Below, one piece after another: positions 1 through 41,819 of a stretch of DNA of 64,000 nucleotides. Below the pieces are notes generated by a model. It did no database searches, was not told the origin of the DNA, and worked only from the letters and a program-made list of their open reading frames with translations. Position 1 is the stretch's first letter. Each line of letters starts with the position of its first letter. The translations under genes were made by a program, and so were the position numbers. Source of the stretch: Favolaschia claudopus (lineage: Eukaryota; Basidiomycota; Agaricomycetes; Agaricales; Mycenaceae); the NCBI GenBank assembly GCA_037176885.1, contig JAWWNJ010000058.1, positions 124,001 to 188,000 of the forward strand, read 5' to 3'.

Positions 1-1435
1 GCACACCAGTACATACAAACAAAATCACGTTGTGGCATACCGTTGACTTGAGCCGAGAATTGCTTGATGAGGTCCCGAAGCGAATCTACGTCTTGATTGT
101 TGAGGTCGACATTTGGAAGTTGCGGGGGGTTCTCGGCGGCTAGCCAGTCATTCAGTTTTGGGAGATTTCAGACGTTGACGACGTACGAAGGAGAACTTTC
201 CGAAACCAGGCAACCAGTTCTTGATCTCCATTCTCTTGGGGCGAGAAGCCCTTGTCGCTGTTGTCAGAGCTGACCGAAACACTGGCCAGGCATACATCAG
301 AGTCGAAATCTTGAGACCGTGAGGGCGAATCCACTTACTGAAACCGCCTGATCTCCTCAGTGCCTGGGACCTTGAAGGCTCCGCGAACATAGAAGGCAGC
401 TTCGCCCAATCCGCCCCAGTCCGCCCCCAGCAGTTGGCGCAGCTTATTGTCTGCGAGTTCCAGAGCTCGATTCTGGTTCCTGCGAATTATCAGAAACAGG
501 AACGAATGAAAGGTGAGGAAACGTACTCAGCGATATGCTCCAGAGGAGGTTTTGCTTTGCGGGCGTCCTTTCGCTTCTGCGCTTCCTCCAGAAACTCTTG
601 CTTGACTTCGTCGGGGCTGCTGTCGAGCTTTTCGGAGGCCATGGCATTAAAAGTGTTTAACCACACTTCACGAGAATACGATGTGCCTGCTAAAGAATCA
701 CGGGTGGCTTGTGCCACTGAATCGTGGTTCGCCTTGCCATACAACACGGAGGCGCGCGGGGCCTTGGGTTTGTTGGCGGTCCAGGTCTGCTTCTGCGGCG
801 CAGCTGGTGTCTTCTTCGCCCCGTAGCGATTCTTCAAGATACTATACATTGACTTTTCGAACGGTAAGCGAACAAGCATGGAAGCACGGCAGACTGAAAC
901 GCACCTCAACAAATGCTCCGGTGTTATAACCTGAGGCACCATCGACACCAAATTTCTGGTTGACCTGCGGGAAGAGATCGCGACGAACGTAGTCTTGAAC
1001 GTTCCCTACGATGGTCTGGGCGTCCTTGGCAGCCTTGAACAAGGGATAGACGTCGCTTATGATGAACGTGTAGATCGGGTCGTCAGTGTAACCGGCCGCC
1101 TTGGCCTCTGCCTTCGTCATCTTCTTCCAAACCCGCCTCGTGTCAGGGGCCTGCGGAGCGGGTGAAGTGAGCGGGTTTTCTGGCGGAGGTGGGTTTGACG
1201 GAGGTGGAGGAGGAGAGGTAGAAGCAGGTGGCGCAGGAGCCGGCGGAGGTGGGTTTGGCGGAGGTAGAGGCGGAGGGGTAGAAGCAGGTGGCGCAGGAGC
1301 CGGCGGAGGTGGGTTTGGCGGAGGTAGAGGAGGAGGGGTAGAAGGAGATGGCGCAGGAGCCGGTGGTGTTGTGGAAGAACTCTGCGATAGAGTTGGGTTG
1401 TGGGTATTGTCGACCGTCGGGTTTGGTGCGGACAT
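1..1435 (-). CDS. Proline-rich protein of unknown function, cut by the window edge
   Basis: Not recognised. The ATG is at 1,435 and the gene runs off the left edge. Exons (minus): 1435-905, 852-527, 479-339, 281-187, 139-41, then a GTATGC donor. All joins keep frame and introns are 47-57 nt. Residues about 20-85 are a low-complexity tract of three repeated P/A/S-rich units (the GGAGGTGG-rich DNA at 1,180-1,370). A conserved-looking globular part follows, containing FIISDVYPLFKAA and YVRRDLFPQVNQKFG, and later LRQLLGADWGGLGEAAFYV. A TATATA box at 1,502-1,507 precedes the ATG. First gene of the KDZ block; its upstream region carries the block-wide motif. The Gly-rich frame on the other strand is only its antisense. 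Confidence 0.7.
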
Positions 1436-1501
1436 GGGATCAAAGTGGACGGTGGCTAAAGTGGAGAGAATTTGTGAGGTTCAGAGTCAATATTCGTCGT
1501 A

Positions 1502-1815
1502 CATATATACCCTCACCATGATCGTCAAAGCGTGGTGACAGGGAGAACAAAGGTCATTGTATGCTGGATTCTCGTCGCATTAGCTGCAGATTTCGGTGGC
1601 TAGAGATCGATTGGAGGCAGGGGTACGCGAAGATACGGCTGGGAGTACGCGTCGTCACCAGATTCGCTGGTGCCAGAGAGGAAGCCAACGAAGCGCTCAT
1701 AGTCGCCTCGCAAGCGCTTTGACTGTTGCTGGCGGCACCGACATGAAAGTCAGCGCCAGAAGAAGACGAGAACGTGAAAGTCCTCGTATTCACGCAGAGC
1801 CGACATGAGAGTCGA
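1502..1815 (-). promoter_or_regulatory. Promoter region of the 1,435 gene with three block-wide motifs
   Basis: The minus strand carries a TATATA box (1,502-1,507) and three copies of the block-wide motif at about 1,737-1,755 (GACTTTCATGTCGG), 1,767-1,786 (GACTTTCACGTTC) and 1,800-1,813 (GACTCTCATGTCGG). All are oriented with the gene. The rest of the 1,436-2,178 gap shows no coding potential. Confidence 0.5.
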
Positions 1816-1960
1816 CTCTGAACGGGCGAAACGGCGGGCAGTAAGGATAGTGGGTCGGTGGTCGGTGGGTGGTGTGGAAGGCAAAGGGTACGGTCACATC
1901 GTCACCAGTCACCTCCAGTCACATACTGACTCATACATCAAATCCGTCACGAGATGTAAC

Positions 1961-1980
1961 GCGTCGCGTCGCGTCGCGTC
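1961..1980. repeat. GCGTC microsatellite, four units
   Basis: Four perfect tandem copies of GCGTC in the intergenic region between the two leftmost genes, next to an imperfect CGTCAC-rich stretch. No function is indicated. Confidence 0.8.
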
Positions 1981-2178
1981 AAAAAGGCGCGAAATTGGTC
2001 GGTTGGGCGATGAAAAAAATTGATGTCAGCGTTGGGTACATGTAGATATTCATTCCCAAACTTCAATGCACTATATATCAACGGCACTTGAGCTACATTA
2101 CTACATTATGAGCAAGGAATGCAGCACATCGAGTAGTACGACAAGTAGGGTGAGATTAATTACTGGTTAACGGCTGGC

Positions 2179-3186
2179 TCACTCCACCGAAGGATCCTCC
2201 ACCTCCTGGTCGTCTTCCTCCCACGACTGAGGATTGTATGAGCCCTCCACATGGCTCCAGAGATGAATGCGCGGGATTACGATCCTTCGCAGATCTATGT
2301 CGTATCAAGATTATGAAGGCAAGGTAAGAAATTCAACTATTGCGACATACCGTCTTGGTTCAGATGGAAGCCAAACCGACGAATCCTCTCCGCGCGAGCA
2401 ATCCAATCTGCATAATGTCAGTAAATCGTAGACATTCAGAGAGGAGATGAACCAAACACTCACTCTCCGTCACTTTCCGCCCGGGCTTGAAGAAATGCTT
2501 GTACAGCAGTTCGGCGGACCCTGCATACAGCTGTAATCCGCCGCCGACAATTAAACTTCAAAATTTTAACTCACAAACTGACGGTGTATATCCCTCGAAC
2601 GATGGAAGCAATTGACGGGGGATTGAAACATGGTGTTGAGCGCACTTGCTGGTCACAGTCTTTGTCTCATGGAGTTCATGCCAACTGTCTGAATATCACT
2701 CGTTAGTTTGTCATCGCGCAACGAAATTAAGAAGCACACACCTTCAAGAACTTCATACCGTCTTCCTAAACCCATCTCCCTGACCGAGAGCGATAGGTTG
2801 TGTTCTGCCCAGCGAGCCTCAATAATCTCAGCGCAAGGAGCTAAGCAAGGATAAGTACTCGGCAGGTTGAAGGACGTTGAATAGACTCACTGGGGCGAAA
2901 AAGAATAACGGGGGCACCTGTCTTCCTGATTGCTGGACCCATGGCGGTCAGTATTCCGGGTGTGTTGTCTCGAGAACAGTCAGTTTTTGAGCGCCCTTCG
3001 AGTCGGGCAATATCGGAGAGGAGAATGCTAAGCGAACGAGAACAATTAGCGAGAACAATAAAACGATCGATCCATGATCGACTGTTATTGTGATTACTTA
3101 CCGAATTTGATGTGTACTGATGCGCTGGTTTGAGAGGGATCGACGAAGGCAAGAGGCACGGAAGAGATAAGATTAATGTTGTCCAT
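2179..3186 (-). pseudogene. Seven-exon gene of unknown function with a one-base frame break
   Basis: Not recognised. Exons (minus): 3186-3102, 3027-2891, 2840-2742, 2688-2579, 2530-2464, 2407-2351, 2294-2179, with good GT-AG sites. Together they total 671 nt, one short of a codon multiple. Exon 2 starts in the frame set by exon 1 but meets TGA at about 2,948-2,950. Its second half (MGPAIRKTGAPVILFRP) and every later exon fit the frame one base over, ending in an acidic tail (WEEDDQEVEDPSVE). This is either a single-base deletion near 2,950 or a sequencing error. Only 47 bp separate it from the upstream 171-aa gene on the same strand. It has no motif cluster of its own, so both may be one transcription unit joined by a GTTCGT intron. 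Confidence 0.55.
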
Positions 3187-3233
3187 CTCGGAGATTACAC
3201 GAGCACAATACAGATGCGGAAACGAGTACAAAA

Positions 3234-3800
3234 TTAAAGGCGCAAATGACGAACAGACTCCCAGTCAGCTAATTCTGACACGCCCTTGAACCGAAGCAAA
3301 AGAGGCTCGTTGGGGCGAACCGGCATCAGGGTCTCCCACCCCACAGTCCGCCATTTCCCGTCCAGGTACCTCTCAAGCTCGTCCGACTTGTCGAGCCCAA
3401 TGGCAGGATCTTCGAGAGCTAGCTTGTTATGCTCTTGGCCGAGCCAAACGAAACCGAATTGGGGTGGATCTAAGAAGACATAATACGGACGCTGAGCATT
3501 CTGGAAGAGCATCTTGTAAGAACGTTTGTCGAACTAGAGATAGATAATGGATCAACCTACATATTTATAAAGCACCATTAAAACTCTTGTAGGACTGTCG
3601 TGGGCCGTCGGGCGAAGACGGGGAGCTTTCACGGGTGGAATTGCTCGCGAGCGGGCGGTGGCTAATTTCCTGCGTTCCCTGTCGCTGAGGAGAGCGAGTG
3701 CGATCTGCGCACAGGTAAGGCGATCCGGGGCGGACGAAGGTGGAGTTGGGAGGAAGTTAGCGGCGTCAAGAGCACGGAGAACGGCACTGGGCTGGGACAT
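3234..3800 (-). CDS. 171-aa protein of unknown function
   Basis: Not recognised. Two exons, 3800-3585 and 3533-3234, are joined by a phase-0 51-nt intron. The N-terminal half is basic (a DRERRKLATARSRA segment); the second exon has a compact Trp/Pro-rich fold-like stretch (YYVFLDPPQFGFVWLG, WRTVGWETLMPVRPNEP). The ATG at 3,800 is preceded by TATATAA near 3,844-3,851 and two exact copies of the block-wide motif at 3,983-4,020. A GTTCGT donor near the end could splice directly to the ATG at 3,186, making one longer gene with its downstream neighbour. No lesion is visible in this part. Confidence 0.6.
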
Positions 3801-3843
3801 TGTGAATGAGGGTTGTTAGAGAATAGATGGTAAAGTGCGCACC

Positions 3844-4020
3844 GTTATATACACGTTGTCAAAGCATTTGAGTCCCAAGCGCATCACAGTGGTCCAAAGC
3901 GGGTGGTCAAGGCGTATGTGACGGTATGTCGTGCTTGAATCCACCGCAGGACACAGACGTCGCGAAGACGCCTGTGGAGAAGCCGACGCGAAGTCAGCTC
4001 ATGGTCACCGACGCGAAGTC
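3844..4020 (-). promoter_or_regulatory. Promoter with TATA box and two GACTTCGCGTCGG sites
   Basis: On the minus strand, TATATAA at 3,844-3,851 lies about 45 nt before the ATG at 3,800. Two identical 13-mers GACTTCGCGTCGG lie at 3,983-3,995 and 4,008-4,020, both oriented with the gene. The remaining bases to 4,223 show nothing else. Confidence 0.5.
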
Positions 4021-4223
4021 GATGTGGGTCGGGATGTGTGCGAGAAGTGAGAGAAGGTAAGAGACTTACTTGTATGGCAATGTTTATTTCACACTCGGCT
4101 CCCACGCCCGAAAAGGAAAAATCGCAAGACGAAAAAGGCAACGAAATACTGTGATTGGGTAGGCGACGTTTTCGTATTTACAAACAGCTATTTACGGTAG
4201 TAGATATTACATTGGTACTTGTA

Positions 4224-6463
4224 TTACTGTCCAAGTTCATGGTCGATGCGCATAGGTACAATGGCCGCGCGGCCAAATAGATCGTAAAAAGATTTCGTAT
4301 AGTATCGAGTCACTGCATCCTCCAACGCCCTCGTCTCCACTGTCGACTCTGGCTGTTGTAACGCGGGCGTTAATAGAGGAGAACGGTCGGGAGTTTTCCA
4401 GTCTAACATCAACTTCGCCAGACGCAAGAGATAGACGCGTCTCTCGTGCGAATCAGCCGCCGCAAATCCCTCCTTGCTCTGAGTAATATTGAAGCCAACG
4501 AGAGCTTGGCCTGGAAAACATTGTCGACACTCGTCAGGTCGCTGGATCCCTGAAGCGCGTTCATCCAGAGCGAGCAGCTCATACCGAAAGCCGTACTCTG
4601 CAGCCTCCCAAACAAGCTCGCGGGCACGATTCACCTCGGTGGGCGGAGCGTTTTGCGGGTCGACAGGAAAGCCAGTGAGTTCTTCGAGACCACAGGCGCG
4701 CATTGCTGGGGCCAGAACTGTCTCGATGACCGCAGTCCGCGCCTCTGCCCTGCTACCCGCCTTGCCTTGACGCTGGATCTTGCCCTGGAGAATGTCGCGC
4801 CATTGTTGCGCAGTGAGCACGGAGATATTCGGGTCCCCGAAGCGATATATCAAGGCATCACGTATGAGCTGATAATGGTGCAGCATCATCCGTCGACGGC
4901 CGTCATCCGCAGCTGAAACGAGAATGGCGGGCTCGGGGTAGACGTACACATTGCGTTGGTCGGCACCGGAGGTTGGGGGGTGAGACCGATCGATCTGGGC
5001 GAGGGAGATGGCCCAGCTGGGAATGACGGTGGGCATGTAGGGACTGTCGAATACTTCGAATTTGTTGCGTTCCTCTTTCGGAGGGCCTTTTGGAGGCTTG
5101 GCAGGGGATCTGGAATCTGTATTGCGTAAGTAACTGAGATTATAGAAGTAGAATGAGAAACGTACAAGGAGAAGATCGGTTTTGAGCACGTTGGGTGCGA
5201 TTTTCTACGTGAGCGCGACTGGGACCAGTCGAAGGAGAAGAACGATTGGATGGAGCGTGTTGTCGAGGTGGCGACGGGGCTCGTGCTGGAGCAGGAGACG
5301 AGCTAGAACTCGGTTGAATACGCGGCTGGCTCGGACCAGCGATCGGCTGCACTGGCGAGGGTACCGCCGGCACGGTAGCAAAAGGATTGGTGTACCACGG
5401 CGTGCTTCGGGTACACAGATGAAGTGAGCGCAGCCGATCCTCCAGTTTGGGACCGACAGGGACAGGCGCAAACCCCTCGGCAGGCACCAGTACAATAGCT
5501 GAACTCGCCTGCACAGGCTTGACGACGGAAACAATGTTCTCAAGATGAAAGGCGGTCAGAGGCCGAATCAGCCAGTAGGGTATGCGAGCTTTGTGGAATT
5601 GCTGCGCGATGGCGGGATCGGAGGTGAAGACGCCGACACATTCGTCGGGAAGACCCTTTCCGGCGGGGAGCGAGGGTGCATCGAGACTGTCCATTCGCGG
5701 TTTGTATACTGACATGTAACGCAGCGCGCCCCAAAGCTCCAGATAGCAGCGCTGGAGGGTGGTGACTTCGATCAACATACGAGGATACGTAGATGGAAGC
5801 ATTCGAAGTCTTTCGAGGGCGAGCTTCATCGATTGAGCGAGTCCGGTGATTATGGGAGAGATCTTGGCGGGAGAAACGATGCCTTTCTGATACTCCGCGC
5901 ATTCCTTGAGCAGCGTTTCCACGGGTTTGACGAAACGTGAAGACCTCGTATGGGTCAGCTTGCCCAATCCGCGGGTAACCGTGAGCCCAGAGTCGGTGGA
6001 AACGAAGTCCTCAGGATGAGGATCCCACCACATGATGGCCTGTATCTGGAAGTCTGCCTCGGCGGAAGGGGGTCGAGGGATTGCCCCGAGGTGACAAAAC
6101 TCGACGCTGTATTGTTGAGGCCATACCGTCGGGTCGTCCGGCCCATACCGCATATCGCGGCGGAGTTGCAGGTGATCAGACGCAGTTGGAAGTAGCTCAG
6201 GGATGTAGTCCGCATTGGTAGTGATGAAGCAAGGAGTGTGGCCCAGCTGAATGTGCGCTCCGACCCTGCCGTCGAAAGGTCCAAGTTCCTCAACTTATGT
6301 ATGTCAGGCTCTGGTTACGCTGTTGATAGCAAAGGACATACCATCGACGCTGTTCCTAAGTAGATCCACGCCATTTTTCACCGCGAGAGAGCCTTCAAAT
6401 TTAGATTCAAAACACTATCATAGTCCAGAATCGCGTCGACGCACCTTTGGTAGTAGCAGTCAT
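4224..6463 (-). CDS. 696-aa protein of unknown function in the KDZ block
   Basis: Not recognised by family. Four exons (minus): 6463-6445, 6392-6342, 6293-5166, 5116-4224. All joins are phase 1, totalling 697 codons with the stop. The N-terminal half is dense and ordered-looking (GAHIQLGHTPCFITTNADY, QIQAIMWWDPHPEDFV, WGALRYMSVYKPRMDS). Residues about 300-400 are a Ser/Pro-rich linker, followed by a second ordered region (VYVYPEPAILVSAADDG, ALIYRFGDPNISVLTAQQW) to the end. No signal peptide or membrane segment is evident. Three exact 12-mers related to the block motif lie just upstream. Its position among genes sharing that motif suggests a role linked to the transposon, but the sequence gives no direct clue. 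Confidence 0.75.
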
Positions 6464-6495
6464 TTGCGTGGCTGGAGGACCGGGGGGTAGAGACT

Positions 6496-6575
6496 AGCGC
6501 GAAGCCAGTCAAGTTTGAGGGTGAGCTCTGCAGCGCGAAGCCACAGAAGTACACACAGCTCGCAGCGCGAAGCCA
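6496..6575 (-). promoter_or_regulatory. Three exact TGGCTTCGCGCT sites upstream of the 696-aa gene
   Basis: The 12-mer TGGCTTCGCGCT (minus strand) occurs exactly at 6,496-6,507, 6,532-6,543 and 6,564-6,575, within 33-112 bp of the ATG at 6,463. Its GGCTTCGCG core matches the GACTTCGCG core of the motif upstream of the other genes in the block, in gene orientation. Confidence 0.5.
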
Positions 6576-6681
6576 CAAGCGCGAGGTTGAGGAGGAAAAG
6601 GAAAAGAGTGCATGTGGTAATGTTTGGCAGGAGCCTCCGCATTGATCGCATCATCTCACACCAGATTTCGCCAAGTCCACT

Positions 6682-6720
6682 TCCTCCTTGGTTCCTCCCT
6701 CATCCTCCTTGGTTCCTCCC
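6682..6720. repeat. Direct repeat of TCCTCCTTGGTTCCTCCC
   Basis: An 18-bp unit occurs exactly at 6,682-6,699 and 6,703-6,720 (period 21) in the divergent intergenic region between the 696-aa and 374-aa genes. Confidence 0.85.
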
Positions 6721-6737
6721 ATCCCACTCATAAGCGC

Positions 6738-6804
6738 GACTACGCGTCGTGTCTTCCGGTCTGCGACTCACATGTCGGGGCCATCTCCGCCGACTCCGCG
6801 TCGG
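6738..6804 (+). promoter_or_regulatory. Three block-wide motifs upstream of the 374-aa gene
   Basis: Plus-strand copies GACTACGCGTCG (6,738-6,749), GACTCACATGTCGG (6,765-6,778) and GACTCCGCGTCGG (6,792-6,804) lie 190-250 bp before the ATG at 6,991, in gene orientation. Confidence 0.5.
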
Positions 6805-6990
6805 CGACACTCCATCCTCCATCTGATGATCATGCTCAGATCCTCCAGTATCTCTTGTCGGCTATCTTCCACGGACAATAAACACAATAAGTCGCTACTC
6901 GATCGCAATCGACCATGGCTTCTACCTTATGTCGACAACACAATAATCTCTATGCTTTAAAACTCGTCTAACTCTGGCAACCCATTCACC

Positions 6991-8584
6991 ATGCCTCCTC
7001 GTACTCCCGACAGTGTCAATCTTACCTGGCTCAAAGAACACATTCCGCGATCTCCTTGGACGAAGAATTGTCCTCATGGAGGAACTCACCATATCTCATT
7101 TTATCAAGCTTCTGGGGACCGCGACCTCGACCGCTTTGGAGACCAATCTTTCTATGTATATTTCGCTCTAAGTTGTTTATCTTCGTGGCTAATACCAGCT
7201 GCAGTGTACTGCCAACAAATGCTTCAAGGCCGTTGTTTCTCTGTCTCCCGCCAGACGGAGGGAGCTTTATCCCGAGTTCCTCCAGTTCAAGCGCCAGAAT
7301 CGCGCAGCCAGAGCCGCAAATCGGGCTCCTCGTAAACCAGTGAAGAGAAAGAAGAAAAATTCGGACGACAACTCCCCTTCAGGTGAGCGTCCTATATTCT
7401 CTCTACCGGAATTGGGGCTAACGCTGCAGTGAAAACAGATAGTGATACACCTCCCGGTAGGTTTCATTGCGATTCTTCTTCTGGGATCACGGTCTGACGC
7501 TCTTAACTCAGAACCTTCGCCCGCTCGCAAAAAGCAGAAGAAGAAGTCGAATACTGATGCCGCCGCTGGTGGGTACTTTCACCTCTCGTCAGATGTATCT
7601 GATTTATACATTATCTAGATCCCGTCGCACCTACCGCCGCCGTCCCGACGCATTCTGGTAAGTTTCTATAATCTGACGCTGTACTTTTTCCAATTATTGT
7701 CCAGAACCCTCTGCTTCTTCTGCCAAAGGCAAGGATAAGGCCCGTGCCGTTCCGGAAGCTGCTTGCGGTAAGTAATACTGTCGAATCGTACATTTTGTAC
7801 TGATGTAATTATTTTTTCTCAGCTTCTTCCACACCCACCAAAGGTGGAAACACAGGCCATGCTTCCGTTGTACACAATCCAGTCTCCGGTTAGTGATCGA
7901 ACCTCGTCCCCACAACAAGATACTGACTCGTCTCAACTTCAGCAACGGCGCAGGTTCTCCCTGTCAATCTCCAAGATCTTGAGATCAAGGATGGATATGA
8001 CACCGACACCTACGAAATTGAAGACGATGAGCGTGAGTAACACGCCTGGTGGACCTTTATTTTCCGTTTCCCTCGTTCTGACTGGTTCTTCAGGTCGCCG
8101 CGTCGAATTCATCATCTTTACAGATGGCGACAAGGCACCAATCCGTCAAACGGTCACTCTACGCGCCGTAAGCCATCTCAACTTCTTCGAGCTGCCTCTT
8201 GCCGCAGCGGTGAATGCCCCCTCGAATCCTCGCTTCTCTTGGTTCTGCCCCCTCACTCAGGAATGGAACATGCTCCGTAATGAGCCAATCAACTTTCATC
8301 CTCGCGGTAGTGTTTTCATCATACGCGACATTGCACTGCGCGAAGCTCGTTGTCCCGATCTTGCTGAACGGATGGCGGAAGCGTTTCGTTCGGTTTTGGA
8401 TATTGATCCAGGTTTGTCTCTATCTATGTCTACAATATCAAGTATACTAACCGTGTTTTCGTGCACAGAGGACGATGAAGTCATTGAAATCATCGACACG
8501 GATTCAGATGAAGAGTTCCCTAGGTCGATTGCCTTGCCGCGTGCGCAACAACAGAGCGCGGTAATCGATCTCTCTTCTGATTGA
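6991..8584 (+). CDS. 374-aa protein with GRF-finger-like N-terminus and SUMO-interaction-like C-terminus
   Basis: Ten exons: 6991-7155, 7199-7382, 7430-7456, 7512-7568, 7619-7657, 7705-7767, 7823-7888, 7943-8032, 8094-8411, 8469-8584. The first intron is phase 0 and the other eight are all phase 1. The N-terminus has C27-x-H29 then C58-x4-C63 around FYLQCTANKCF, which resembles a GRF-type zinc finger. Next comes a very basic segment (RKPVKRKKK) and a Ser/Thr/Pro linker built from small exons. An ordered domain near residues 230-335 follows. The acidic end carries VIEIIDTDSDEE and terminal VIDLSSD, both fitting SUMO-interaction motifs. Inferred nuclear, DNA-binding accessory protein of the block; unproven. 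The acceptor of exon 2 could be 6 nt later. Confidence 0.75.
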
Positions 8585-8909
8585 CTTGAAATCTCGATAT
8601 TCTACCGATATATTTTCATTCTATCGCTCGCTGAACGGTGTCTTGGCCGTAATTATACCCGATGTTCCTCATGTAGCTTGATGTTTCTTGAATCCATGTT
8701 ATTCTTTCCCTAAATTCAAGCTCTTTATTTGCAATCCATAGTCTGAGAACAACACGAGCAATTTTATTTCCTGAGTCTGTGAGCGAGACCAATATTTGCG
8801 GATGTGTCGCATCAAGGATATTGCATAGCCACATACGACTCTCAAAGCACCCTTCAAGTGTACCCTCGCTTTGCCCCTTCGCTTTGCCCTCCCTTGCCTC
8901 AAACGGGTC

Positions 8910-9188
8910 GACTTCGCGTTGACCCTTTGCAATCGTGACTTCGCGTTGCGATTCCGTGCTGTATCGACTTCGAGTCGACGCATAAAGCACCAGTTTTCTC
9001 GGCTCACCTTCCGACTGGCGATGTACCCAACATCTCTTTCAATGGCGCTGTGTTTCACGGGAATCCAAATAGCTTCTCTCTCATGCTTTGGACGCACCGG
9101 TCTACTGGCCCGATTTCCCGCTTAGACGCTTTGGCCACGACCTGACAATTGAGCTTGGGCCGCCCGCTTTGACCCAAGTGTATAAAAG
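8910..9188 (+). promoter_or_regulatory. Promoter with three block-wide motifs and a TATA box
   Basis: GACTTCGCGTTG at 8,910-8,921 and 8,937-8,948 and GACTTCGAGTCG at 8,966-8,977, all in gene orientation. TATAAAAG at 9,181-9,188 lies 38 bp before the ATG at 9,226. The rest of 8,585-9,225 shows no credible gene. Confidence 0.55.
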
Positions 9189-9225
9189 CTGAGCCTATAA
9201 CGAATTCCAGGTCAGTAACTTCAGA

Positions 9226-10725
9226 ATGCAGTCTCGCCTTGCCAATATCGAAACCACCTTCAACAGGCTCGCCGCTCTACCTTCCAATCTCAATCGCTTC
9301 AATCAAGCATTCTTCCGGCAACGTTATTCCGCCGTTCAGCAGTTGGCCGAGGGCCTTGAGCAGACCAGAACCGGCCTGCTCAAAGTTTACGCAGATAACG
9401 ACGCGGAAAACGACGCACTTCTACCAGATGTGGTGGTAACGGCGCTCGGTAAATTATCCTATTCAGCCGAGTCGATATCTTTTCTGATTTGAGTTGCAGA
9501 CCGTATTCTTTACGAGTGTGGAACGATTATGGAGCAACTGGATGCCTCCATTCTCCCCTTTCGACTTCCTGACGACGATAATGACGAAACTGTGTACTGT
9601 CTCTCTTGTTCTTATGACTTGTGCAACTTAACTGAATCTCCTTTAGACGTGACTGCCTTCCGTCGTATGAGCGCCACATACGCAGACAGGCCTCTGTCCT
9701 TTTACAGAAACTTTCGCCCAGCACCCACCCGTACGTACATCTCATTTTCCATTCAGTCAAGGACTGCTTTTGACTCGTATGCAGAACGGTTTCTTCACGT
9801 TTTTTTCTATTTGGCGACTGCAGCAGACGCACTCCTGCAGAAATGGCGGGTCGACGATGCAGCAGTGGTCGATGTGAGATCTTTCCGCCTTCCCCCTGGG
9901 GTCCTAATTTGGGGAGATCTCGAAGTCCTCGACGTCAAGACAGGCACGTACGCCGTCGCTGGAAGGGACTTGAATATGGTGGGACGCGGTCGTATCCTGA
10001 TCTTCCGCAGAATTGGATTGACGGCTCCCGACTGCCCGTCGCTGGAACGACGCGAACATGCGGCACTCGAGTCGGCTCATGATCCAGGTACGTGAATCTC
10101 ACTCCAATTATATATTTTCACCTCAAGCTGACATTCAGCTAGTGAGGATAGTCATGAATCGGACGCTTCTTCGCCTCTCCCTCCTTCCTCTCCTCCTAAC
10201 GATGAGTCCGACTCCTCTGAGGAAGTTGTGGAAGACACCGATGGAGCCCACCCAAACTCGTCTCGTTCGTCTCACTCGGCGCTCGCCCATCACGACGCAA
10301 CCACAGCTCCCGTTCGCGCCACAGCACATTCTTCTAACGACAAGTTCGACCCCGCAGAGGAAGCTGTTAAAGAGGCCGACCAAGGTCATCCAAACTCGTC
10401 TAACCCGTCTCAGCCGGCGCTTGCCCATCACGACCCCACCCCAGCTCTCGTTCGCGCCACAGCAGATTCTGTCGTGCGCGTTCCTGAACAGGTGTCGCAA
10501 TCGAGCTTGAAACGGGCTGCGGAGTCTGAAGCAACGCAGGAGGTGGTGAAGAAACAGAGGATCGATGATCCCCCGGCTCGTTCCCCATCCCCCCAAACTG
10601 CTCCTGTCCCGCTCTCTTACGAAGAGAGACTTGCAATCCACGGGGGACTTGGCCAACCCGCTTTTTATGTCTCTTCCTCCGATCCTGACTATCCCGCCTC
10701 GCCAGATGTGGAGATTTTAGACTGA
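9226..10725 (+). CDS. 431-aa protein with internal 46-residue duplication, unknown function
   Basis: Not recognised. Exons: 9226-9448, 9500-9598, 9647-9730, 9785-10087, 10139-10725; all four introns are phase 1. The N-terminal 75 residues are helical-looking (LANIETTFNRLAALPSN). The middle is ordered, with WRVDDAAVVDVRSFRLPPG. The last exon encodes a disordered acidic tail with two tandem 46-residue repeats, each with HPNSS and ALAHHD. A basic patch (VKKQR) follows, and the protein ends DVEILD, again SUMO-interaction-like. Same strand as the flanking 374-aa gene and the KDZ transposase, and shares their promoter motif. A partner or accessory role is inference only. Confidence 0.75.
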
Positions 10726-10964
10726 ATGATTTTCTTTTTTACATTTTACTTATTGGCTGCCATTGTGCTCCTTATGGACTCATGATAACGAACGAACACC
10801 TATGCTATGTAAATTTGTACTTGCCGCTTCTGTATTCGTAATATAATAATCAACCGTTTGACGCTGACCTCAATGCCTTGGCCCTTTGTCCCTTTATGAG
10901 TTGTCACGAACGCCATTGAATGCCGCATCAGTCACAAGTCACAGTCACGGACCCGCCCTCACCC

Positions 10965-11267
10965 GACTCTCATGTCGAGTGGTCAAGACGGCCTCCCGCC
11001 CTTTCCGTCAACTTCCACGTCGGCGGAAATAGCTGCTGACTTCCACGTCGGTAGCTGGATCCGGTGGCTCACCGTATGGACGCGATCGGGAGGTGATGGC
11101 TGGTTATTGTTTTCGATGATGTGGCATCTTGTGGCACCACATGTGAGTGACATTGCCGACGTTTACAGCTCGATATATACTGATATTGAATCCTGTGGAT
11201 CTTATAGCCTTAGGAGCCAACTTCCATGTCGGTTCTTTGCTTGAGTGGACGCTGACTTTCACGTTGG
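10965..11267 (+). promoter_or_regulatory. Five block-wide motifs upstream of the KDZ transposase
   Basis: Plus-strand copies: GACTCTCATGTCG (10,965-10,977), AACTTCCACGTCGG (11,010-11,023), GACTTCCACGTCGG (11,038-11,051), AACTTCCATGTCGG (11,219-11,232) and GACTTTCACGTTGG (11,254-11,267). This is the richest cluster in the block. All are in gene orientation, 120-420 bp before the ATG at 11,387. Confidence 0.6.
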
Positions 11268-11386
11268 CGGTCCAAATCTTCAGAGTGGCTCTTAGGCTAT
11301 TCGTCTTCGATTCGAGACACACAGATTGAGGTGCGTGCCGTCTTTCTCTCGTTGTATTGCAAGTACTGAAGCTTTTTTGCAGTGTA

Positions 11387-14300
11387 ATGGATAAACGATC
11401 TCGAAAGAGAAAGTACCATGGAGCGTTCGAGTACGACCCTCTGCCCCCAGTCAACGCCGCCGCGTCGAGCTCCAATTCGGCCCCTTCCATCCCATTGCCT
11501 GTCCATTCAGCATCTGGAAGCTCCTCGCCGCCTCGGCGATACGCTACGAATCGGCGAGCCGTTCCTTCGGGCACTGGATTCGGCTGGGAAGCCAACGACA
11601 CCCCGCTCGCCTCCACAACCCCTTTCGTCTCTGTCTCTACTTCTGGCTCCGACCCGACTCTTCAGGAGCTTGACTCAGCTGACGATCCTGCTCCCGAGCC
11701 CACCGCCCCTCCCACAACTTCACAGAAATTCGGACCTTTGGAGGATAAGACGCGTCGGCCGCAGGTATATCTTCTCATTCCTCAGTTTATGAACAAACAA
11801 ACTAATATGCATGTATCTTCAGGGCGCTTCAGTTGCTATTGCAGAGGTGTTGCCTCTCTTTCCAGCCATTCAAGCCGCAGTTCTAAACACCTTCTCCCAC
11901 TGTCGCCTGGGGTCCGATTGCGGGTGTGGAGCCAATGCTGAAGACACAGTGTTTCGCTGCGTGGACTGCTTCAATGCGCCGCTGTGGTGTCGCCAATGCA
12001 TCGTGTCTCAGCACCGCTATACGCCTTTCCACCACATCGAAAAGTGGAACGGCAAGTTTTTCGCCCGCGACTCACTGGCGGCGCCCGCTGCAACGGAATC
12101 CTGTCCATCCTCGCCGTCATCGGACTGCGTCATCGTCGTTCAGACCCATCTCGTTTCCGATGGAAAGCCTTGCCCTAACATCGACCCGCGGAAGCGTCAC
12201 ATCACTCGCGAATTTACAATCTTGGATTACAATGGGATTCACACTCGCGAAGTCCAGTTTTGTGGATGCGTACAAGAAGACTTTGCTGAATGGCAGCAGC
12301 TCTTGGGGGTCCGATTGTTCCCAGCTACGTTCAAACACCCACAGACCGCTTTCACGTTCACGGTGATGAAACAATTTCACATCCATTCGCTCGCATCGAA
12401 GAAGTCTGCGTACGACTATATCAAGGCGCTTTGTATGTTCACCGACAACGCTGGACATCACAATGTTACGGTTAGTTCTCGTTCACATCTGCGAATGCCA
12501 ACTTATCGATTATCAGGACCGTTATCGAGAGTTTCTTTTCGCATTTCGTCTCTGGCGATTTTGCACCCTCCAGCGACGGTCCGGACAAGCTCATGGGATC
12601 GATTTTTGGGTACCTTTTCGGCGCGCCGGTTCACTCACGATACGGTGCCCCGCTTGTCCCGAGGTTGGTTTCAATATCTCTCGCGAAACTATGGATGCAG
12701 CTCTTGCTAGTGAACGGTGGGTCGAGATCACCGTAACTTCGAATCCCGTGCTCACGAATCGTCAGGCATAAGTTCACATTGTATCTATCCATCGATGGCA
12801 AGTTCAAATTGCAGCTGAAGAACAAACGTGGCGATCCTCACGACTTCGCTCTCAATGACGGCAAGGGCTATTTCGTCGACGTGGAGGACTATAAGGATTA
12901 TCTCAAAGTTGCCAAGCCTGAAGACGAGGTCAGTGTGACTGGGGTTTTTTCATGGTATTCATCCGCTGATTGACTATTAGTTGGGAACCTGCTGGCATCT
13001 GCGCGCAGCGCGCATGCAGAATATCGCCAAATTCAAGAACGCCATCGTCAGCGGAGTAATAGCTGTCCAATGCGCCCATCATGGCTTCTACATGACCCAA
13101 GGAATGGTGGACCTCAGCAAGGGCGAGGCGTAAGTTCAGGCCATCACATTTGTTGACGCGTTCACTCAATATGCTCTTAGTTTCGCCAACGCCGACTACG
13201 CTCTCATCTTCGCATTAGCTGAGGCTGCCTTGCTTCGGTGGATTCGTGGCATCTATGACATCTGGTGCCACTATGGAATTCATCTCCTCGATCGCGTCAA
13301 GGACCTCTTCCCCTCAATGCTGTCGATCATCGAGAAGATCACTGGCGCCATACCTAAAATGCACATCCTCAACCACATCGAGCGCTGCCAGATGCAGTGG
13401 AATCTTAATTGGATTCCTTATTCGGCGTTCACTGTGGGCGAGATGATCGAAACCGGATGGGCCGTACACAACCTTACGGCTGGAAGTACGAAAGAAATGA
13501 ATCCCGGCCACCGCCACGATGCAATTGACGAGACGAGCCACCACTGGAATTTCGAGAAAATGATCTCGCTAGGTACGTGCCGCTGCTGTAACCTATACTG
13601 TCTCTCAACGCCTTTTCATTAGCGGCCACTTTGTTACGCCTATACCGTCTTGCCGTTTCCGAGCGCCGAAAACGTACCCTCAATTTTGAAGCAGTGGATC
13701 GCCAAATGCGGCAACAATATCCTGAAAACGTCCCGAAGTGGGAAGCTATGGATGTGACTCCGAAGGTGGTGAAGGGTGAGCTACACAGCGTTTTTCAAGT
13801 GTCGTTCAAGAAAGGTGATTGTCTCCATCTTTTCGTTATTGCATCAGCTCACTTTTGACCTTGTCTCGCAGGTCCGCCAACTCATGCAGCTGCGTACGAA
13901 AAGCTTCTTAAGGCAGAAGTCGCGGCCGAGCAGCAGCGGAAGGCAGAGATGTCGGCCGCAGACATGGCAGAGGCGGGGAATACGGGATCTGCAACGGCTA
14001 CTGAGACGAGGGATCTTGGATCGGGGCAGTCGGTCAAGGGTGACTTGGGGCTTGTGGCTGCCGGGTTGCAGCTTGAGCGAGATCGGTGCGTTACCGATAT
14101 GCATAGAAGCTTCTTAACATTAATGGTCGTAATAGGGAACACATCCAGCGCCTCAGCAAAATGTCGGCCCCCGCTGATGTCATGCGTGCGGCGCGTTCGC
14201 GGTTCTTCCAAGACATTACCGCCCTCAGATCAAAGCAGGTCCAGCGTGTGCCAGATTTCTCCCGTCGCATGACGGAGGTCGATCCCGACAAACCTGAAGA

Positions 14301-15240
14301 CTGTCCACTATTTCTTCCATCGCAATTCGGTCCGGCTCAGCGGGCGACTATGAAGATTGAAGACTTAGGAAAGCTCGAGTACTCTCTTCGTGAGGGACTC
14401 GCCTACGATGCTATCATGGAGTTGCGGCGTGCAATCCGCACTCGCAACTGGAATCGGGACCTCAAACACGGGGCGATACATGGTGTGGGTCGGACTACTC
14501 GTGCTGGCAACTACCTCAAGACTCTGAGCAATGACATCGAGCTCGCATCTGATACTTACCGACGCGTGCGTGTAGGTTTGGTGCGGCTGGGGTTACCAAA
14601 TGATGATGAGACGTTGCGGCCGCTGGATCATCGTAAGAAGGCAGATGGGAAAGACGGGAAGAAACTCGAGCTTGGAGATGCGCGTAAGGAGGAGCCGTGG
14701 TTTTGGAAAGTGATCCAGCCATCTGGAATGACTTCTGGGGAAAAGGCGGAGTGGGATATGGAAAGTACGTGCTTCGCTCGCTGGTATTCCGTTCGCAGTA
14801 GAACTAATCTCACATGTAGTGGATCGTGTCAAGTGGTTTCGGGATCGGGCGCTGCGCGATCGGGCAGTGGAGGAGCAGGAGACACTTGAAGCCGAGGTCG
14901 AGAGGACCATTGCTTCATTCCGCCGCTACTGCGACATTTGGGAGGAGATAGCGTCGTCCAAGCAGGATGCGGGTGTGTCGGGCGGGGCGGTTGCTTACGC
15001 GCACAAACAAGCCGCTATGTATGATCGTCTGCGAGTGGACTGTGAAAGGGAGTGGGCACGAGCCCCGAGCTTGATAGCGCAGGACGAGAAGGACGAAGAG
15101 GAGAAGGCGAAGAAGGAGGAGTTAGAGTTGGCGGCTGCGACGGCGGGGGGAACGGAGTATGAGCCGGACTTCACGGTATGCCACTTATATTAGATGCTCA
15201 TTTGACTAATAACTTACAGGCGTACTTTGACGTCGTATAA
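11387..15240 (+). CDS. KDZ (Kyakuja-Dileera-Zisupton) transposase with CxC2 cysteine cluster, intact
   Basis: Eleven exons: 11387-11764, 11823-12470, 12517-12716, 12766-12928, 12981-13129, 13181-13572, 13623-13814, 13872-14085, 14136-14764, 14820-15175, 15220-15240. Frame is kept throughout, giving 1,113 aa without a stop. After a basic, disordered N-terminus, residues about 160-190 are the CxC2 cluster (GCGANAEDTVFRCVDC, LWCRQC, HRYTPFHHIEKWNG). The RNase H-fold core has the first Asp in YLSIDGKFKL (about 419), then GVIAVQCAHHGFY and GMVDLSKGEA, IYDIWCHYGIH, PKMHILNHIERCQ, and GEMIETGWAVHN with MNPGHRHDAIDE. The C-terminus is a long charged helical region. The length fits the family. It should act in the nucleus, cutting at element ends; the GATTA array just downstream is a candidate end region. 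Confidence 0.93.
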
Positions 15241-15609
15241 CGGCCTTGCTCGCGGTTAGGATGAACGATACACTGATCATGCGAGGCGGAGCTCGCTTGA
15301 GGTGCGTGTGTCTCGCCTCTCCATGTGCTGTCCATATTGACCTCGCCTTGCTCCAGCCTGCGTCGACTTCACCATCGCAGTTTTTTTATGCCCCTTGTGG
15401 ACGCTCATGCGGCGCTCTTCTGTGCCGTAGGTCATCATTTCAATGCCGCCGCCACTACTGCAGCGGTATACCTACTCCACATTCCACGGCTGCATCAAGC
15501 TGACCGCTCGCAACGAGTGCCACACCTCAATTTTTTTGTCCCCAAAAAGGAAGCCAAAAGTTGTGTATATCTGTTTACCATTGGCACCCGCTCTATACTG
15601 ATCCGACGA

Positions 15610-16010
15610 ACAGGCGAAAATCTCAAGTTTAATCTGAACCCAGATTATGCTCACAAGTTTGCGGATTAATCTTGTTCAAGATTATCGCGCTGTAGTAAGA
15701 TTGTTTTTCTCGCCTGAGATTTAATTCAACGGTCAAATCAATCTTACAGGGATTAAAATTCGGGATTTAATCCTCGCGAGCAATCTCATCAGGATTATCT
15801 CGCGAGGATTATTTTGTGCGGGGAGCGGGATTAAATAACATACCCACGACACAATCTTGGTGATTAATCTGGCGGCTCGCGGTTAGGATTATTTGTGTCG
15901 AGATTAAATCTTGTAGTAGAGATTATCGTGTACATTGTAATTTGCTAAAGAGCAACAGAGATTAACCTCAACTTTCGTCAATTACCAAGATAGATTAATC
16001 CTATCCACTG
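15610..16010. repeat. GATTA/TAATC array downstream of the KDZ gene
   Basis: About 400 bp contain at least 13 GATTA and 5 TAATC pentamers, often as GGATTA, AGATTA or GATTAATC, mixed with CTCGCGAG-like words near 15,768-15,805. The density is far above neighbouring DNA and there is no ORF. Arrays like this next to a transposase are typical of subterminal binding sites. The stretch 15,241-15,609 shows no gene. Confidence 0.7.
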
Positions 16011-16199
16011 ATTTCACTGACACTTCACGAGCACAGGAGTTGCTTTGAAACGTAATAATACGTTCTAGGATCTCGATCCAAAACCGACACAAGCGCAAGA
16101 ACGGCTTGCGTGTCGCAAACCCTCTCCAAGGCCAGAAAGTGAGTCGATAGCAGAATGATATTGCTGCTGGGTCACCATCAAGACTGATGCCGCAGAGAT

Positions 16200-19100
16200 A
16201 CAAAGTTATTTGAGCGGGCGGCTTGTCCTTCTGGTGAAGAACAGGGGTCGAGCGGGTTTCGTGACCTGAGTAAAGGATAGAACATCACGAACAGGGGAGA
16301 CCTCACGGAACGAACGAGTCGTCGATGCGCCGCAAGATACACAGACAAGGGAACAAAAAAAATGGAATCTCGAGAAAGCGACGGGAGATGAGTTTTCGTT
16401 CAGGGTGAGATGCGCAAGTTGTAGAAGAGCGGAGCGTCGATGAGCCTGATGGACAAAAGCGAAGGCCTCAACGACTGTAGGCGAGAATCGTTTTGTAGCC
16501 GAAATGAGTGTCATTGATGCGTGTACGGAGTCGCGCGGGGAGACGGGGCTAACACAGACTTGCTTCGGCATGTGCGTCGAAGCCGGAAAACAGATCGAAA
16601 TGGAGCATGAATTGACAACAAACGAAGTTGGACAGCAGAATGCAAAGTCGAAGTCGCTGCCCAACAACACCAAATAAGTGAGGTAACTCCTAAGCAGGAG
16701 GAAGGCGAAATTTTTCTGAGTGATCGTTGGGTGAGGAAGAGTCTAGGGCGGAGAACGAGGGATAGCGGATTCGTGATATGGAGGCACAGCGTGCGCGCTA
16801 GCAACAGAACGACACCAGAAAACGGGGCGGATATGCAGCGTCATTCACACACATTGACATTTCCAGAGGTGGACGCACGACCGCTCACTTCTCATCCCAA
16901 TACTTCATCAAGCAGTCATTCCACCACAGCTCCGCACGCCCAGCCTGGCTCCGATGCGTCGGGGATCGATTGAGCCATACGAAGAGGCATCAGCGGTGTA
17001 TCATCCCAAGGACAACGTCCGCCATCCCATCCGACTCAATTCTCAGCAAATGAGCAATCCAAAATCGACTGGAAGACATGCGAGACGCATGGAGCAACGA
17101 TGCTGACGCCGACGCCAGGAAGGGCAAGCCATTGGTCGGTCGACTGCGGGATGTATACAGTATAGACGGAGTAGGTAGAGATCGATGTGGGTCACGGCGG
17201 TACGGTCGGAGCGACGACAACGAGGATCGCAGGAAGGAGGCCGTGGGGAAATGGGTGAAGACCGCACGTCGAAGCAGTCGAGCTAAGGAAGACGGAAACG
17301 CTGAAGCATAAGCCAGACCCCCCACGCCTCAGCTATCAGCCGACGAGGATCGGTGACGCTGACGACAGCCATACGATAGGAGACCGCGAGGTCGAGAGTC
17401 TTGACAGTGAGACACGTCGCCAGCGAATAGCGAGAAGACCGCAGACACCGATCGACTTTTCAGGCAATACGTCGGTCAGCACACACACGGGCAGCTAGCA
17501 ATGGGCCTCACCTCTTCCTCCCCTGAGCGCCATGACCGTCCCGGCTCCCACCACCCCAAGCGAACCCACGAAGGCGAGACGCTCCATGCGTACCCGGACC
17601 ACGTCCGCTCCACTCTCCCACCATTTCCAGCTCGATCCCGCGACAGCCCCACGAGGCGCCGCGTCGACAACGGTGGCATGTACCCCATACCACGCGCGGG
17701 GGGCGGGGGAGCAGCCGCGGGGTTGGGGAGGATGATATACGAGCGACTCCATCTCGGTATAAGACCCCACGCCGTCCTTTATCCCGGACTACCTCCCTCG
17801 CCACCCCCCGCACCGCATCCCTCCGGACTACCTTCCGCTCCAGCGATCCTACATCATCTCCCGAATCGTCAGCCGTCAACGAAGCTCTCGCGGGTAAGCG
17901 AGGAGCACGAGAAGAATCTCGGAAACGCTATCCGGCTGTGAGGCGGCGAAAGGAGACGGAGATGGCAGCAAGAGGCGGGGAACGGGGGCAGAGAGGTCCA
18001 GTGGATAGCGTTGTCCGAGTTTCACGGGCGAGAGTGCTCGGTATATCGACCGACAGCGTATTCAATATGTCCGCAGGCGCTATCCCTTCACGACGAAGAA
18101 CCGGGCGAGGAGCCAATCCACCTTCATCGTCTTAATCTGACGAAAAAGTCAGTGCCGTCTTCCTCGTGCCACCTCGAAAGCCGAACGGGGACGTACGAGG
18201 CATTCCCCCTACCCCTCATCCGCTCCCCGTCCCGTCTTCAGTCTTCCGCCTCGTCGTCGTCTCCACCATCCTCATCGGCAAGCCGTTGCTCATCGTCACT
18301 CAGCTTCAAGCACCCACCGGCCCCGAAGCAGCTCCTAGCGACGGAGGACGTCAGTAGTCGCAGGGCCGCGAGAATACAGGGTACTTACTACATCCACACG
18401 CCGCGGGTGTAGTCAAAGTCGGGACTTGGACTGGCGATCGTCTTGAGCACGATAGACACGGCGAGCGACTTGAGATGGGCGGCGGCGGCGGGAAAATCAG
18501 GCGGGCAGTAGCAGCAAATCTGGTGCCGCTGGGTCGTGTGCCGGCCTTGGTCGCGGGCGAGGGTGACGATAACGGTGACAGAGGGGAGGTGCTGTATCAG
18601 GAAAGCCCTCCTGCGTGTAGGCAGCAAGGGGCGTCGACGCGGGTGTGCCGTATCCAGGAGGGTCGATGGAGGAGCATCTGAGGATTTTGAGGGTAGGTCA
18701 GCACGTATACGAGGTGCCCAGGACGCGGAGATGATACATACAGATGCACACCCGAATATTATAGAGCCCCGTGCGCGGAAACACGCTGACGCAGCGGATG
18801 AGGAGAGGAGGAAGCATGTAGAAATACCCCCGGATCTATCATTCCTTGTCTCAATCTGGACTCAGAGTCAGTACCGTCACTAATGTACCCGTGAAGAGAG
18901 AAGGAGAGGGAGAACGTACCATGCACACCCCCGCTCATGACTCCCGTCCTATTTCTCCTCCACCAACCTTCCCATTCCTTCCTCGGGTGATCCCCATTCG
19001 CCTCACCACCATCGTCACAGAGTGTCTTGAATGTGCTGGACATAGAGGTCGTCAGTACTCGTCGAGAGAACGGAAGACACGAAAGCACGGATGGGATGAG

Positions 19101-21190
19101 CGAGCATGCCTACCTGCACGCGCGAGTGTGTACGTATCCGATGCGAAGCCGGCGTCCAACGGGCATGTGGTGGGGCGGCGGGCTGGGGCGTACAGTCCAT
19201 ACGGGCGACACTGAGAGCCAAGTATGGACGGGTGATCCTCAGAAGAGGGCAAGTAAGCTTATCGAACTACGGACAGGAAGATCTCACTCACCTGCATTGA
19301 AGACGTAGAGATCCTAACCCCCCCAGCAGCCTACGTGGTCTCCGAATTTCAGCGAGGTCGAAGCAGGGCGGGAAGGTACTCGGTGGGCAGTAGACACACT
19401 CCAAATCTAGTCGTCGATTCTTTCAAAACGGCAGTCAGTAGACTGGAGAGCAGAGCAAAAACTACGCACCAGATTTCTCGCCAGCCAATCGACCCAGGTT
19501 CGTAAACTAGAGCCACTCTCCCATGACGCGTTGCCGTAGCCGCAACCAAGGTCTTGAGTTTGTGGTACGAGTACCCCTTCAAAGAGTTTTTCAGCAGTAT
19601 ACAGGAGATTGAGAAGGCGAAGGTGTACATACCCTCACAAATTCAGAGAAGAAGATCGGACCTCAGGCTGAGAAGGCCTGACGTCGGCGCCTTCCTTTCG
19701 TCAAGGGCGATGCCACCGTGTATCGAGTGAGAGCAGGCAGCGTAGCCAGAGGTCGAGCGCTTAGCGCGGCGTCAAATCCGTACAGAGGGGCTCTGAGAAT
19801 CGTGCTGGAGGCTTGAGAGTCTATACGTCGAAAAAGCTGGATAACGGCGTCATGGCGGCGCCTGATAAGTGTGAGGCGTGAATGTAGTTGCTGCAGATGA
19901 GGTTGAGGGTATGGGCGTATGCGGTAGCATAGCGACGAAGGTGTAGCGAGAATGAGAAGATCAAAGAAATCGCCGTCGCTGTAGTGGACGATGTCAAGAG
20001 ACGAACGTGAGAAAGGATCACGTTGCTTTGTTTCGGATACGTTTCGGCCGAGTCCCCCTTGTCGTCAACGACCACCTCGAACTCGCGCGTCGCGTCTATG
20101 GACCTCTTTGGAACGAACCAACGATCTCAAACCGTTATCTGGCATACGGGCCTCCAATGTACCCCCAACTGTCATCAGCATGCTGTGTCATCAGTCTATT
20201 TTTCTACCTTCCATGCGCATTCAATCCGAATTTCAACCAAACCAACCTCTCCTGTTCTCAGAAATTCCCAGGCCGCCTGTATCTCTTCGACATCTCATTA
20301 GTCTCTACCTCTCACTCACTGACTCAGTCTCCGGCAGTGAAATAAATAAGCCGCGCATCCGGTGCCGATTGTTTTCTTTTCGATGGTACGCGTTTAAGTA
20401 TACTTACGAATTTGGACTTTGATCTCATCTGTTGCAGCATTTCTTATCTTCGTACGTCCATCCCCAAGCTCCAATTACAAACCACACCCCTGGACCAATC
20501 AACGAGAACTCCAAACTTTATTTCCGTGTTGAAGCGCCGAGCGGGTAGGAGGTTTAACTCCTCCAGCGGGGGGTGACTCGGAACAATCCCCATTTTTCAG
20601 TCTTTTGTGTGGCGGGCGACGCTCGCTTCAAGTTCTCTGAACCTATCCATTCCTCGGGTTCAAGTTTCCTGCGGTCCATTCGTCGCGATACCTGTTGCTT
20701 GATACTCCGCCAAACACAAACCAAACAGGTACATATTCATCTTTTCCCTCGATAGACGAAGCTAGCCATTATGTTGAAGTTTCAACTGACCTGTCCCGTT
20801 AGATTCGGTGCTGGGATTCGCAACGCGTGGTTATCTACCTTGCTTGAGGTTCGACTCCTCGATCCAGCGATACCATCGCAAGTTACTCCTTAACTCGAGC
20901 GAGGTAAGTGCTAGCGATTTCTCCGCCCTTGCTCAACACTGTTTGAACTAACAAATCGAACTGATGATAACTTACCGGTATGATATTCCTCCCCCAGGGC
21001 CTTGTATTCCGCCCTCGGTATTATTCTCAATCGGGGTCGCTCGCTGTAGATTCGCGTCCAAATCTTCTGCAGTGTCTTCGATTCATTCTGATGCATCGCT
21101 CTTTATCCTCTCAGAATTGGTGCGCTATCCATTTTTCCCCAGCTTATGAATTACTATCCGCTTGTTTCAGCTGACTCGTTAGATTTAGCG
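16200..21190 (+). repeat. Copy A of a decayed dispersed repeat family
   Basis: This stretch has no credible gene but aligns block by block with 45.3-48.25 kb and 61.2-64.0 kb. Examples: the GTCTCAATCTG block at about 18,850 with the CCCATTCG/GGTGATCC-like block at 18,985; a GGAGGACGTCAGTA block near 18,340; a GATCACGTTGCT block near 20,015; and a CAATTGGTGCGCTATCC-like block near 21,120. Identity by eye is roughly 65-80 percent with many indels. The first kilobase is GC-rich. Open frames on both strands do not line up between copies. The tail carries T-arm-like hairpins at 20,548-20,564 and 20,846-20,860. Possibly relics of a multi-exon gene or a large non-autonomous element. Confidence 0.75.
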
Positions 21191-21595
21191 TCAGAAATCA
21201 GAACCAAACGTATAAGATTCGGCTGATCTGACCCCTCCTTAAAAGTCTCAATAATCACGCTTTCCACTCCCGCTTGGTATGCCTTGTCGGACTACTACAG
21301 GATGTTTTCCTGAAGGAATGAAACATCGATCGCTTTCCATTTGTTCGAACGTTTAAGTCGGAAATTCGGCTGAGGAAGCTCGATTGATTCTTGGGCTCTG
21401 GAACGGGGGTCCCATATGAGAGCAAAAACCACAGTAGGTATATCAATTTCGATTTTGCCTTGATCCTTCGATGCTGCTCCCGAACAAACGAAGAGAAATT
21501 TTGGAGAAATTGCAGGCTGGCTTGGGGATTTTTGATTTCATCATTCGGGCGGATCAAATGCCAGCACCAATCTTTCTTTTTCTCTCCCACTAAGT

Positions 21596-41592: not shown

Positions 41593-41819
41593 AGTTTGGT
41601 TTGTGCGTTTAAAGACCGCCGTCTATGAAGAATATATTTACAATGTTAACAGTGTGTTGTTGCTAATGAGAGTGAGTTGATGTAAATATGTGTGTAAGCA
41701 ATTCAAGTACAGTACGGATTCAATAAGAGGGGTGTTGGAACGTGAATATACAGCTTGTCAATGCAAAAGCCCATTGCGTGGAATGTGAATGGACAGAGTG
41801 GGCAACGGAGACGAGATAC

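Follow-up and report, generated by a model that had tools for sequence, protein, structure and literature searches.

A putative Kyakuja-type KDZ transposon of 17.4 kb in Favolaschia claudopus, with six genes in addition to its transposase and arrays of GATTA-type words

Starships are large DNA transposons of the Pezizomycotina that move many genes as a unit. Members of the KDZ superfamily are described from other fungi: Kyakuja elements, known from Laccaria bicolor and other Agaricomycetes, have a 7-bp target site duplication (TSD) and 5'-CA..TG-3' ends (as given in the available part of Kojima 2025, PMC12730594), and the KDZ1, KDZ2, and KDZ3 elements of Cryptococcus are of the CxC1 type, about 9-11 kb long, with terminal inverted repeats (TIRs) of 139-241 bp and TSDs of 8 bp (KDZ1) or 4-8 bp (KDZ2 and KDZ3) (PMC12810828, available part). 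In Arabidopsis, VANDAL transposons encode VANC anti-silencing proteins, whose tandem targets vary between related elements (PMC5735166, available part). Here, we analyzed a 64,000-nucleotide stretch of the genome of F. claudopus (Mycenaceae; assembly size, 264.6 Mb), positions 124001-188000 of contig C58, hereafter the window. A reading of its sequence without database searches (the sequence-only reading) had proposed a giant, cargo-carrying KDZ transposon of about 16 kb at its left. The locus is very probably best explained as a 17,392-bp Kyakuja-type KDZ transposon with a putative accessory module of two genes, G4 and G3, and with element proteins that carry motifs resembling SUMO-interacting motifs (SIMs).

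The element spans C58:122628-140019, from 1,373 bp left of window base 1 to window position 16019 (not 16010, as the sequence-only reading had it); window positions 1-16019 are its right 92%. At 17.4 kb it is large, although below the 20-kb limit for giant transposons set in the available part of one review (PMC6431247). The left end reads 5'-CATCGTTTGCACCCC... and the right end ...CCACTGATTTCACTG-3': the termini are 5'-CA..TG-3', and the outer 19 bp have no inverted repeat beyond CA/TG. Matched ends and a target duplication had been predicted and are present; the TIRs predicted with them are absent, and inverted similarity is subterminal instead (approximately 85% over 66 bp, from about base 20). 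The GATTA array noted inside the right end consists of 18 GATTA/TAATC words that are interspersed rather than tandem, and no tandem repeat was reported there. Its predicted partner on the left was found in the 30 kb read beyond the window, where a TAATC-rich mirror array (C58:122601-123200) faces the GATTA-rich one in opposite orientation. Over 94 kb, at least 14 such words per 400 bp were counted in 3 of 468 intervals, all at the two arrays, and 452 intervals hold 0-2.

The genome contains three full insertions with all seven genes, as had been predicted: copy A on C58 (in the window), copy B on C37, and copy C on C1. Copy B is 99.76% identical to copy A over 17,404 bp (32 mismatches); copy C, into whose right array 594 bp are inserted, is approximately 97% identical. 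The flanks of the three insertions are different, similarity stops at the same ends, and the 7-bp duplications are three different ones. Each large copy has one left and one right terminus, both outside all seven genes, and no internal termini; the KDZ gene, in particular, is not bounded by termini of its own, and the single-unit reading stands. A genome search with a 23-base subterminal word, allowing up to 3 mismatches, found 34 places (1 for the reversed control), which correspond to the 3 large elements, 12 short two-ended elements, and 4 unpaired ends. Exact 7-bp direct repeats flank all 14 elements in which both ends were matched by pattern (3 large and 11 short, nonautonomous); in the fifteenth, L062, the left end is altered and a 7-bp duplication fits by eye.

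Empty sites had also been predicted. Searches with the joined flanks of seven insertions (copies A, B, and C and short elements L053, L055, L056, and L058) identified uninserted sequences that span the junction for six of them, namely A, B, and the four short elements, with best matches 87-93% identical. Junction alignments at A, B, and L053 show a single target copy each; at L053 this copy matches the 7-bp duplication exactly, and at A and at B it is one base off. In the F. claudopus assembly, 86.8% of BUSCO genes are duplicated (PMC10905254, available part); therefore, both haplotypes may be present in it. The element is mobile as a unit, and because two copies at different sites differ by only 0.2%, we infer that it moved recently.

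The features of the element, in window coordinates unless a contig is named, are as follows.

C58:122628, 1,373 bp left of window base 1: left terminus, 5'-CATCG...
1-1435, continuing to C58:123278 (723 bp left of the window), minus strand: G1, proline-rich, 621 aa, six-exon model, ending in WYIVEVDA (SIM-like)
2179-3186, minus strand: G2, 222 aa, a gene model with similarity to KDZ transposase
3234-3800, minus strand: G3, 168 aa, neighbor of G4
4224-6463, minus strand: G4, 696 aa, from a large unnamed family that adjoins several other KDZ transposases
6991-8584, plus strand: G5, 369 aa, with two C-terminal SIM-like motifs (VIEIIDTDSDEE and VIDLSSD) and a stretch like G6
9226-10725, plus strand: G6, 447 aa, ending in DVEILD (SIM-like)
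11387-15240, plus strand: G7, CxC2-KDZ transposase, 1113 aa, 11 exons
15630-16000, no strand: right subterminal array of GATTA-type words, mirrored at C58:122647-123079
16001-16019, plus strand: right terminus, ...CACTG-3', the same in the 3 large and 11 short elements with small variation
16020-16026, no strand: right copy of the target site duplication ACACTTC; left copy at C58:122621-122627

The seven genes, described by the sequence-only reading as closely packed and mostly intact, make up 63% of the element, and each is open to its stop codon in this copy and in the other two. The intact CxC2-KDZ transposase was confirmed: the open frames of G7 match Pfam families PF18803 (CxC2; E 7e-31) and PF18758 (E 2.2e-28), which places it in the KDZ superfamily, and both domains are also precomputed for the NCBI model P0121. 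The unrecognised 696-aa protein has exactly that length in our model of G4. The NCBI models (G4, 670 aa; G6, 428 aa, P0241; G7, 1068 aa, R3P38DRAFT_3322377) agree with ours save for some splice choices. The spliced models of G1-G6 match no Pfam family at the curated cut-off, and no TET/JBP dioxygenase was matched by Pfam in these models, in the open frames of G7, or among the precomputed domains of P0121. Kyakuja-type assignment is supported by the length of the TSD and by the termini; since these match and TET/JBP is absent, we call this element Kyakuja-type, with a different set of accessory genes. Two other assignments were rejected: Zisupton and Dileera require an 8-bp TSD, and the duplications here are 7 bp; a Starship would carry a tyrosine-recombinase captain domain, which Pfam scans did not detect in the seven proteins.

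Comparison of copies A and C shows that the reading frames have been conserved. Only one of 24 indels is coding (3 bp), and the 16 that fall in the stretch from the first gene to the last leave every frame unshifted (p about 1e-8). Nonsynonymous changes account for 27 of 71 substitutions in the transposase (p 3e-10; dN/dS 0.18) and for 84 of 139 in the six other genes pooled, where 0.72 is the neutral proportion (p 0.002); taken singly, G1 (p 0.03) and G3 (p 0.007; dN/dS 0.11) are under purifying selection. In copy C, one G5 intron has a GC donor and one G2 intron a GA donor. Divergence between A and C is uneven, at 0.5% in window positions 4628-5627 and 5.9% in 6628-7627; the pattern across 3628-7627 suggests gene conversion or recombination between copies.

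G4 belongs to a family with 124 relatives among the scored candidates. Among the 120 relatives listed, precomputed Pfam domains are absent; the majority come from Mycena, many per species, with two from Panaeolus and one from Coprinopsis. An AlphaFold2 model of the NCBI version of G4 (pLDDT 88, pTM 0.87) gave no Foldseek match at E<=0.001. There are 35 G4 loci in the F. claudopus genome outside the element copies. For KDZ genes, the comparison used scored matches only (41 of 1092 candidates), which define 28 other KDZ loci. Five of these have a G4 relative within 15 kb, compared with 0.13 expected (p 2e-7). The neighboring gene G3 gave three weak matches outside the copies at E<=1 (E 0.10, 0.70, and 0.77). 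Each of them adjoins a G4 relative at one of the other KDZ loci, with gene order and orientation preserved; the chance of this is about 5e-10. In other species, G4 and KDZ relatives share a contig in four cases, two of them from M. galericulata and two from M. leptocephala; as a link, this is only suggestive. The co-occurrence of G4 and G3 with KDZ transposases suggests that these two genes may form an accessory module for transposition or anti-silencing.

The related locus on C107 has, in order, a G4 gene, a G5/G6-type stretch, two G3-like repeats, an open reading frame (ORF) ending in GDVIEIESSDDEE (a SIM-like end), and a KDZ gene. The two repeats resemble each other; shuffling against G3 supports one of them (2 of 1000) and does not support the other (110 of 1000). 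After the KDZ gene lies an array of GGATAG motifs, different from GATTA. Since the architecture is the same and the motif is not, arrays and their readers seem to evolve together. A coding-looking, putatively ferric-reductase-like stretch follows the GGATAG array (L070:760-2200); it may be an interrupted host gene.

The remaining extra genes are less widespread. The genome-wide protein searches covered G1-G5. With G1, only the three element copies were found in this genome; with G5, the three copies and one decayed piece on C51 (C51:199656-200031, from its N-terminal region). Residues 79-121 of G2 resemble the KDZ transposase around residues 599-642, and short fragments like this part occur elsewhere in the genome, in two cases with a KDZ gene a few kb downstream; the substitutions in G2 show no purifying selection (w about 1). 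G2 is probably a truncated, transposase-derived ORF. A stretch shared by G5 and G6, picked by eye, scores 61 against a shuffled mean of 27, with no shuffle of 1000 as high; BLASTP did not report it. A GRF-finger-like protein had also been proposed. The splice form of G5 that was scanned has no zf-GRF match up to E 1 and no PDB relative, and an exon boundary inside the proposed finger is uncertain.

The sequence-only reading had two proteins ending in SUMO-interaction-like motifs. Such motifs are present in G5, in G6, and more weakly in G1, and they make these proteins candidates, unproven as yet, for SUMO interaction. By a loose rule, 3 of the 7 element proteins (G5, G6, and G1) have SIM-like ends, compared with 6 of 240 G4- and KDZ-family proteins; these controls are weak, because proteins of both families probably end in folded parts. 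The loose-rule total is 8 of 242, the remaining two being the NCBI model of G6 and a G6 relative from M. haematopus. In that relative (42% identity over 60%), the motif persists as DVEIVD close to the C-terminus, in a tail that is otherwise poorly conserved.

These data suggest how the element may work. The CxC2-KDZ transposase would recognise the GATTA arrays and the terminal CA..TG, excise the element as a unit, and integrate it with a 7-bp stagger. G4 and its neighbor G3 would be an accessory module common to several KDZ elements, with a role either in the transposition complex or in shielding the element from silencing, and the C-terminal SIM-like motifs of G5, G6, and possibly G1 would tether element proteins to SUMO-rich chromatin or repair sites.

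The arrays allow another reading, which we regard as somewhat unlikely: they may bind an element-encoded anti-silencing protein, like VANC, and not the transposase. In its favor, the array motif changes from one related element to another (GATTA here, GGATAG at C107), as VANC targets do (PMC5735166, available part). The short elements speak against it: they retain array sequence at both ends, approximately 0.3-0.6 kb on the left and 0.3 kb on the right, although similarity to the seven element proteins was not found in L053-L068 at E<=1e-3. Arrays kept in elements without these genes fit recognition by the transposase at least as well. The short elements L053-L064, which share the ends and are 2.2-3.9 kb long, fall into at least two subfamilies; one of the short elements, L058 (C149:275401-280400), has many array words in mid-element, with TAATC at 4.8 per kb in the mid-region.

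It is improbable that the element took up its six extra genes from the host and carries them unused, as Starship-like passenger cargo. The gene set is indeed a multi-gene one, in both orientations and outside Pfam families at the cut-off; the genome search with G1 and G5 gave no clear relatives at other KDZ loci, so that part of the set is possibly element-specific; and for 29 of the 35 other G4 loci, the surrounding 15 kb hold no scored KDZ gene. On the other side, searches of this genome with G1, G2, G3, and G5 found none of them as a host gene: the matches were element copies, weak hits (mostly at related KDZ loci or to fragments with the KDZ motif), and the decayed G5 piece on C51. G4 and G3 recur beside KDZ transposases, and the frames are intact in all three copies. 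Four of the five genes searched are confined to the element or have weak matches, for the most part at related KDZ loci; the extra genes thus look like accessory genes that belong to the element itself, and the earlier label of cargo fits them poorly. A composite locus, in which a KDZ element and unrelated genes came together by chance in a segmental duplication, is extremely improbable, because even in a genome where large duplicates are common (86.8% of BUSCO genes duplicated; PMC10905254, available part) the different flanks, shared ends, three different 7-bp duplications, and absence of internal termini contradict it.

Several observations weigh against the reading that we prefer, that of a Kyakuja-type element with its own accessory genes. 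The joined-flank search gave no uninserted counterpart for copy C. Purifying selection does not reach significance in G2, G5, or G6 taken singly and is borderline in G4 (p 0.05). For G1 and G5, no relatives were detected in this genome outside the element, save for the decayed piece of G5. The 29 G4 loci without a KDZ transposase nearby also count here (KDZ genes being those scored, 41 of 1092 candidates), and C178 and C157b may represent a single element in two copies, which would make four linked loci and not five. The SIM-like motifs are short; a stricter rule passes 2 of 242 proteins, and G5 alone of the seven. Finally, the case is built from sequence, and recognition of the arrays by the transposase is our interpretation of it.

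The right flank (window positions 16020-22000) is a multi-copy region with many related stretches (64-85%) on C58, C100, C227, and C12, and is probably the "different repeat family" of the earlier description. Pieces of the C58 right flank align collinearly to C100:104721-110391 at 71-76% identity; that stretch may be the other haplotype or a paralogue. Tandem repeats occupy positions 41815-42056 (period, 119 bases) and 52663-52929 (period, 70 bases).

The locus provides a Kyakuja-type element that is complete, carries several genes between defined ends, and exists in two nearly identical copies, and it links a large unnamed protein family, multi-copy in Mycena genomes, to KDZ transposons. Together, the three full copies and at least 11 short elements that share their ends make a system in which to study KDZ movement and escape from silencing without a TET/JBP enzyme, and they may bear on the large genomes of Mycenaceae. 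More tentatively, KDZ elements of this family could be multi-protein machines in which G4/G3 is an obligate partner, SUMO-binding proteins target chromatin, and element proteins read family-specific arrays at the ends, as a protein-based alternative to the anti-silencing strategy of TET/JBP.

Among known systems, the element resembles Starships in being a large fungal DNA transposon that moves many genes as a unit, and differs in that its movement is attributed to a KDZ transposase and not to a tyrosine-recombinase captain. VANDAL elements have a plant host and a transposase unrelated to KDZ, and anti-silencing by VANC has been shown there, whereas it is putative here. The likeness to VANDAL lies in accessory proteins encoded by the element and in motif arrays that differ between related elements (PMC5735166, available part). 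With KDZ1, KDZ2, and KDZ3 of Cryptococcus it shares a KDZ transposase with an N-terminal cysteine cluster; it has CxC2 instead of CxC1, no long TIRs, a 7-bp TSD, and a larger size (compared with the available part of PMC12810828). With Kyakuja it shares a KDZ transposase, a 7-bp TSD, CA..TG ends, and the lack of true TIRs (the word "subterminal" does not occur in the available part of Kojima 2025, PMC12730594). The Kyakuja elements described there encode a TET/JBP dioxygenase, whereas the F. claudopus element has six other genes, including the G4-G3 pair.

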